A stretch of DNA of 64,000 nt, taken from contig JASBSB010000001.1 in the NCBI GenBank assembly GCA_030149205.1, positions 260,357 through 324,356 on the forward strand, in the 5' to 3' direction. Below are positions 8,986 through 10,068 of this stretch, one piece after another. The DNA comes from Candidatus Heimdallarchaeota archaeon. GTDB taxonomy: Archaea; Asgardarchaeota; Heimdallarchaeia; Heimdallarchaeales; Kariarchaeaceae. Under the pieces are notes generated by a model, which saw nothing but the letters and a program-made list of their open reading frames with translations, did not search any database and was not told where the DNA came from. Position 1 is the stretch's first letter; every line of letters begins with the position of its first letter. The translations under genes and the position numbers were made by a program.

Positions 8986-10068
8986 TTAGGCTATTACAAT
9001 AGGTTGATAAATCCCGCTTGTCCTAACACCTTTATCGAATCTTACTAGAACCTTTGCAGATGACCTTTTACCAAAAGTTCTAACAACAGAACCCTTTATA
9101 ACAGAATTTGTGTCAGGATAGGTGAGCTTGACCTTTTTCCCAATTAACTCTTCTGGGCTATAACCATTGGAAAGTTTTACAATTAACGTGTTGGGATGAA
9201 TCACCCTTTTACTTCTCCTATAGGATGAGCTTTGGCCAATCACTGTTCCTGTTCCAACAATACTTCGTGGTTTTGATTCAGTCTTCTTACCTTTGAGACC
9301 TCTTGCTCTAACTGAATGCTCCACATGTAATAAATCGTCATTAGTGTAGACCTCAACAACAGCCTTCTTCTTTTTGGGTTGAATAATAGCTTCTTTGCTG
9401 ACCCTCTCTTTCTTGATAGGTTTTACTCCTTTCTCACGTTTTCCAGTTCTTTTGGCTTTAACTGCCTGTGGAGCTGTAGGTATCTCTCTTGTAATTTGAT
9501 CTGCTTTTTTCCTTTGCTCCCTTCTAATGGCTCTTGCTTCTTTCTCTTCTTTGGATAATTTTCTAGCAGTAACCTTCCAGGTTTCTCTTTCAGATTTTGT
9601 GTCCTCATCAACAGTTTTTACATCTTTAAGATCCTTATCTGTAACTTTGGTAACCTGAACACCTTTCTTTTTCTTTGAAAGGAAAATTTCATCCTCAGGA
9701 GGAGGAGCTACTGATTTTTTCTTTTTCTTAGGTGAAACCTTCTTTGGTTTTTCTTCCTTAGCTGGTTCTTCAGAAACCTCTTTTTTAACTTTCTTTTCTA
9801 CAGATTTCTTAGGCTTTTCTACTGATGGTTCTTTGGAAACCACATCTGCAGAAGTTTCAGGAACTACCACCTCAAATGCCTTTTCTTCTGTTGAAGAAAC
9901 TTCTGCGGCATTTTTAATAATTTTTGAAGCTGTAGCTTTCCCGATGCCTAAATTAATGATATCATCTAGTGTAGCCTTAGCAAGCTTTTCAGCACTTTCA
10001 AATCCACCGGACTTAAGTTTGTCACTTGTCTTTGGGCCAACACCCTTTACTTCACTTACATCGGTCAT
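8986..10068 (-). CDS. HhH domain - long basic linker - ribosomal protein eL33 (L35Ae)-like fusion
   Basis: N-term HhH 'VKGVGPKTSDKLKSGGFESAEKLAKATLDDIINLGIGKATASKI'; Lys/Glu/Pro linker; C-term 'SYRRSKRVIHPNTLIVKLSNGYSPEELIGKKVKLTYPDTNSVIKGSVVRTFGKRSSAKVLVRFDKGVRTSGIYQPIVI' aligns by eye with eL33. Confidence 0.75.
   Translation of the reverse strand: MTDVSEVKGVGPKTSDKLKSGGFESAEKLAKATLDDIINLGIGKATASKIIKNAAEVSSTEEKAFEVVVPETSADVVSKEPSVEKPKKSVEKKVKKEVSEEPAKEEKPKKVSPKKKKKSVAPPPEDEIFLSKKKKGVQVTKVTDKDLKDVKTVDEDTKSERETWKVTARKLSKEEKEARAIRREQRKKADQITREIPTAPQAVKAKRTGKREKGVKPIKKERVSKEAIIQPKKKKAVVEVYTNDDLLHVEHSVRARGLKGKKTESKPRSIVGTGTVIGQSSSYRRSKRVIHPNTLIVKLSNGYSPEELIGKKVKLTYPDTNSVIKGSVVRTFGKRSSAKVLVRFDKGVRTSGIYQPIVIA

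Follow-up and report, generated by a model that had tools for sequence, protein, structure and literature searches.

Within a 64,000-nucleotide stretch of the genome of a Candidatus Heimdallarchaeota archaeon (the window; its genome is designated G000), a single open reading frame joins an HhH domain to the ribosomal protein eL33, raising the questions of whether its product is the eL33 of this cell and what the additional domain does there. Whole folded domains are rarely gained by ribosomal proteins. A preliminary description of the locus had given the coordinates, minus-strand orientation and 360-aa length of the reading frame correctly, and the HhH–basic linker–eL33 architecture that it proposed was borne out by Pfam domains and an AlphaFold2 model (Table 1). 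Pfam HHH_5 matched residues 3–54 of the fusion protein with 41.5 bits (E 1.8e-10, cut-off 27), and this score, together with two GhG hairpins (GVG and GIG), identifies the N-terminal domain as HHH_5. The model consists of two confident domains (residues 1–60 and about 274–360, pLDDT >90) separated by a basic linker of ~210 aa, which is mostly of low confidence and includes one confidently predicted helix (residues 173–190, pLDDT about 92). In the family of the window, f1, the linker keeps a conserved block, marked by invariant columns (A1), and is therefore more than a spacer.

Table 1 The fusion gene, its parts and the adjacent gene, in window coordinates
Feature	Coordinates	Strand	Details
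HhH–linker–eL33 fusion gene	8986..10068	-	360 aa; start is the sole Met (ATG) of the protein
HHH_5 domain, residues 1–60	9889..10068	-	Pfam E 1.8e-10; pLDDT 92–97; GhG hairpins GVG and GIG intact
Lys/Glu/Val/Pro-rich linker, residues 61–272	9253..9888	-	Net charge > +20; mostly low pLDDT
Conserved block in linker, family f1	9454..9675	-	KKK.G.Q ... W.V ... L..E.E ... ITR.IP ... KA; includes helix 173–190
eL33 (L35Ae) domain, residues 273–360	8989..9252	-	Pfam 29.4 bits; Foldseek TM 0.84 vs P. furiosus eL33
Coiled-coil gene upstream of the fusion, 236 aa	10137..10847	-	Synteny, cluster c15; adjoins the fusion in four f1 genomes

The identity of the C-terminal domain was examined by profile, sequence and structure comparisons. 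The profile check proposed in the preliminary description was significant: Pfam Ribosomal_L35Ae scored 29.4 bits on the last 88 aa and 28.1 bits in a six-frame genome search, both above the cut-off of 27, but only 24.0 bits, below that cut-off, when the whole fusion protein was scored. NCBIfam L35ae gave 27.5–31.1 bits (E 1.8e-7 at 31.1), below an equivalog cut-off of 85 bits that is a naming threshold set on canonical L35ae members. Judged by its sequence, the domain is a divergent orthologue, not a typical member, and the homology stands. Sequence searches of the PDB with the C-terminus returned archaeal eL33 (E 1.7e-6) ahead of yeast-type eL33 (E 5.6e-5), and the top Foldseek matches of the modelled domain were eL33 chains, with a TM score of 0.84 to both P. 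furiosus and T. kodakarensis eL33. Since Thermococcales and archaeal eL33 outscores the yeast protein in both searches, the proposal that this segment is eukaryote-like was not supported. Canonical archaeal eL33/L35Ae (P. furiosus 1sqr and 4v6u; Asgard families f8 and f9) shares the fold and the single-copy status of the fusion but is about 85–135 aa long, with neither an HhH domain nor a long linker.

We observed no other eL33 in G000. The six-frame Pfam search of this genome, which is 93.5% complete, gave one match over the cut-off, the next-best L35Ae match (12.6 bits) lay within a 1131-aa frame, and a single DNA match for eL33 was found. A second, short canonical eL33 gene, for which the preliminary description had advised looking, was rejected on this genome-wide result, leaving the fusion as the sole eL33. 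Searching with a profile of the fusion proteins recovered canonical Asgard eL33, with E-values reaching 1e-10, and a joint profile detected eL33 in 191/232 genomes of the phylum, nearly always in single copy. The Pfam L35Ae search fails or scores under the cut-off for most members of family f2, and eL33 is easily missed by this search in these Heimdallarchaeales genomes.

A single ORF encoding the HhH domain, linker and eL33 was found in about 22 species, spread over three families of the order together with a distant Asgard genome (families f2, f3 and f4 belong to the same order as f1, and f5, f6 and f7 to the same class). These are G000, G003, G005, G006 and, as far as its contig end, G004 in f1; G015, G016, G018, G019, G020, G021, G022, G023, G024, G027, G028, G031, G033, G035 and G036 in f2; G012 and G014 in f4; and the distant genome G079. 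Within the order, this long HhH-bearing form is the sole form of eL33. This recurrence answers the question of conservation across Asgard archaea, indicates that the fusion is no accident and leads us to reject a chimeric assembly or a mis-called fusion. With the fusion conserved and the only eL33 of its genome, neither of the observations named beforehand as speaking against it, a separate canonical gene and a lack of conservation, was made. In f6 genomes and the distant family f16, eL33 has a Lys-rich tail without an HhH domain, and other Asgard families have mostly short eL33 of about 94–135 aa. HHH_5 was detected in 18/23 proteins in a member-by-member scan; by architecture, the five members without it should be two f6 proteins, two canonical proteins and one truncated protein. 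Both GhG hairpins are retained in most f1 and f2 fusion proteins. An upstream neighbour (cluster c5) is common to the eL33 genes of f2, with HhH, and f6, without it, so that these genes look like positional orthologues; in f1, the fusion gene comes after the coiled-coil gene, an arrangement that G003, G005 and G006 share with the window. Searches of a partial literature collection, which make weak evidence of novelty, found no report of an HhH–eL33 fusion. We conclude that HhH–eL33 is a real, conserved and apparently undescribed variant of the HhH-extended ribosomal protein theme.

Several side observations concern these loci. In an f6 genome with two eL33 matches, one lies on an f2-type HhH–eL33 contig (L092, G038:C109), probably a contaminating f2 contig in an f6 bin. 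A protein of 498–559 aa ending in one or two HHH_5 domains is encoded at G016:C1:1377147, G028:C97:74168 and G036:C165:18397, within a few kb of eL33 in G016 and G028. In many assemblies, a contig ends inside the K/P/A-rich linker of either eL33 or uS4 (G002, G009, G013, G018, G022, G026 and G032), and HhH fusions are therefore easily lost in MAGs.

Selective constraint on the parts of the fusion was compared over 24 f2 pairs, which are not independent and in some of which dS is near saturation. Mean dN, dS and identity were 0.075, 0.42 and 86% for the HhH domain, 0.133, 0.89 and 78% for the eL33 domain, and 0.21, 0.62 and 69% for the linker; the set includes G038, on which the ranking does not depend. 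The dN/dS of the HhH domain in these pairs is about 0.18. These values indicate that selection maintains the HhH domain no less strictly than the ribosomal domain; it is under purifying selection, with a constraint about as tight as that on eL33.

HhH domains also occur on other ribosomal proteins of the order. The uS4 of genus g9 (family f2) carries a tail rich in Lys and Pro, with HHH_5 at its C-terminus (L187, L190, L192, L194, L197, L202 and L205), and uL24 of several g9 genomes likewise ends in HHH_5 (L157–L161). In a domain tree of 66 columns, the uS4 and uL24 HhH domains group (support 82/80); the uL24 domain of G034 nests with uS4 of G018 and G034 (support 98/92), and the other uL24 domains are placed elsewhere. 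We read this split placement as suggesting at least two copyings of the domain, with uS4 as the source and uL24 as the recipient. The tree is short, and the eL33 HhH domains of f1, f2, f4 and G079 may have one origin or several. In G000, the HhH proteins that were detected include no ribosomal protein other than eL33.

The nearest precedent is haloarchaeal eL32 (NCBIfam NF009401; PDB 1jj2 and 9l94), in which an N-terminal HHH_5 domain and a charged linker are likewise added to an archaeal large-subunit protein. The preliminary description had drawn this comparison, and it proved apt, since a PDB search with the HhH half gave haloarchaeal eL32 as its best match; NCBIfam matches of the fusion protein include haloarchaeal eL32 (27.9 bits) and RadA (33 bits), both under their equivalog cut-offs. 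However, eL32 is a different ribosomal protein, its HhH domain is strongly acidic (net charge -7 to -9, compared with about 0 in the eL33 fusion), and the two kinds of HhH domain were not grouped in the 66-column tree. The HhH half also matched RadA structures in the PDB search and resembles the N-terminal HhH of RadA/Rad51 in its HHH_5 sequence, but the fusion is without the ATPase core of RadA, which is separately encoded, in two copies, in G000. On the ribosome, eL33 and eL32 lie near each other on the solvent face, with Giardia eL33 contacting eL32 and human eL6 contacting both (PMC8860606). Given this proximity, the HhH arms of haloarchaea and Heimdallarchaeales would extend from the same part of the subunit. 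A lineage-specific extension of eL33 in Leishmania binds an rRNA end (PMC5071889); this trypanosomatid extension (Leishmania 80S) differs from the fusion in being short, and no HhH has been reported in it.

The reading that we favour, to which we give about an even chance, is that the fusion is the eL33 of the cell in its normal site and that the HhH domain, tethered by the arm, binds a nucleic-acid backbone, most likely that of RNA. The C-terminal domain would dock in the normal eL33 site of the large subunit, as its fold, uniqueness and orthology suggest, and the N-terminal HhH domain would hang on the basic, mostly disordered arm as a tethered backbone-binding module. Its ligand would most likely be rRNA or its precursor while the ribosome is assembled, or else RNA belonging to the same ribosome or to one next to it. 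The selective constraint on the HhH domain and the presence of such domains on uS4, uL24 and haloarchaeal eL32 speak for this reading. The closeness of eL32 and eL33 and the rRNA binding of the Leishmania extension favour RNA as the ligand, with our confidence in this part close to evenly balanced. The net charge of the HhH domain in the window protein, which is near zero, the partly degenerate GhG hairpins of f4 and G079, the conserved linker block of f1, and the ability of HhH domains of this subtype to bind DNA and protein as well all count against it.

A particular form of RNA binding, an arm reaching enlarged rRNA, had been put forward as a ribosomal expansion in the preliminary description and is unsupported as stated: the LSU rRNA of G000, minus one 186-nt insertion, is of ordinary archaeal size. 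The LSU rRNA match in G000 spans 3219 nt, against 3375–4282 nt in most measured relatives of the class. In an alignment of LSU rRNA from 17 genomes, the extra sequence of G000 is the 186-nt insertion, which lies in helix 89 (E. coli position 2478), and no enlarged ES39 segment (about E. coli 2815) was seen in this genome. The excess in the fusion-bearing order consists of insertions of 186–423 nt at E. coli 2450 or 2478 and of 420–880 nt at 1783 or 1924 (loci L229, L227, L230, L225, L222, L221, L226, L231 and L232). Because these are functional-core positions, introns are the likeliest reading, and where tested the insertions matched no Rfam intron family. An arm for a supersized rRNA segment was rejected, since the excess is at core, intron-like positions and ES39 of G000 is not enlarged.

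The rRNA of family f5 is unusual in another way. The LSU rRNA 3' end, starting immediately ahead of the sarcin-ricin loop, is present there as isolated multi-copy pieces with no upstream LSU sequence (G041:C12:515019-515329; three copies in G039:C65; six places in G056), and a full LSU rRNA was not found in f5, even in the single-contig genomes G054 and G055. These pieces could reflect split rRNA, or missing or intron-broken operons. In the same family, eL33 was undetected with a custom profile in G037, G039, G041, G043, G045, G052, G054, G056 and G059.

Other ligands for the HhH domain have to be weighed against RNA. It might bind a protein partner, such as a factor for translation or biogenesis, or another ribosomal protein through its HhH domain, and so act as a recruitment or polysome-clustering arm. 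This is consistent with the near-neutral charge of the domain, with the occurrence in g9 of HhH arms on both large- and small-subunit proteins and with the gene near eL33 in f2 that likewise ends in HHH_5 repeats, but G000 has no second HhH ribosomal protein, and we consider it unlikely. Below it we place a tether to DNA, which we regard as doubtful, in which the HhH domain would link ribosomes to the nucleoid, and so to the chromosome or transcription, or in which the protein would also act in DNA repair. The preliminary description had suggested more generally a second nucleic-acid-binding role, which the protein may have. HhH modules classically bind the DNA backbone, and this one is of RadA/Pol type by its matches to the RadA profile and structures. 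However, the same kind of module occurs on three ribosomal proteins of the order, and as the product of the sole eL33 gene the protein must have at least a ribosomal role. In FISH-identified Heimdallarchaeota cells, DNA and ribosomes lie about 0.18 µm apart (PMC8776820), which also argues against a tether.

It is improbable that the two halves act separately, either because a precursor is cleaved, as in eukaryotic ubiquitin–ribosomal fusions, or because an internal start yields a short eL33. Translation from a GTG within the G000 gene (codon 276) would yield an eL33 of 85 aa, which is a canonical size, but G000 has no internal ATG, and several of 21 fusions are without any candidate start near the domain. 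Internal initiation was rejected because the candidate starts are not conserved among these fusions. That the HhH tail is merely tolerated, functionless baggage gained by neutral accretion is very improbable, since the domain is retained over three families with a low dN/dS and an identity above that of eL33, even though the linkers of fusion genomes differ in length, between about 53 and 289 aa (net +9 to +42), and f6 is missing the HhH.

Heimdallarchaeales ribosomes thus probably carry extra tethered arms. A broader conjecture, which we raise tentatively and think unlikely to hold, is that the arms of eL33, uS4 and uL24 spread between ribosomal proteins by domain copying and share a common purpose, such as ribosome clustering or the holding of rRNA or mRNA, in cells where DNA is spatially separate from ribosomes. 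Large- and small-subunit proteins alike have gained this type of domain in a lineage that is often discussed as a relative of eukaryotes, and the eL33 fusion provides a concrete case for testing what HhH arms do on ribosomes.
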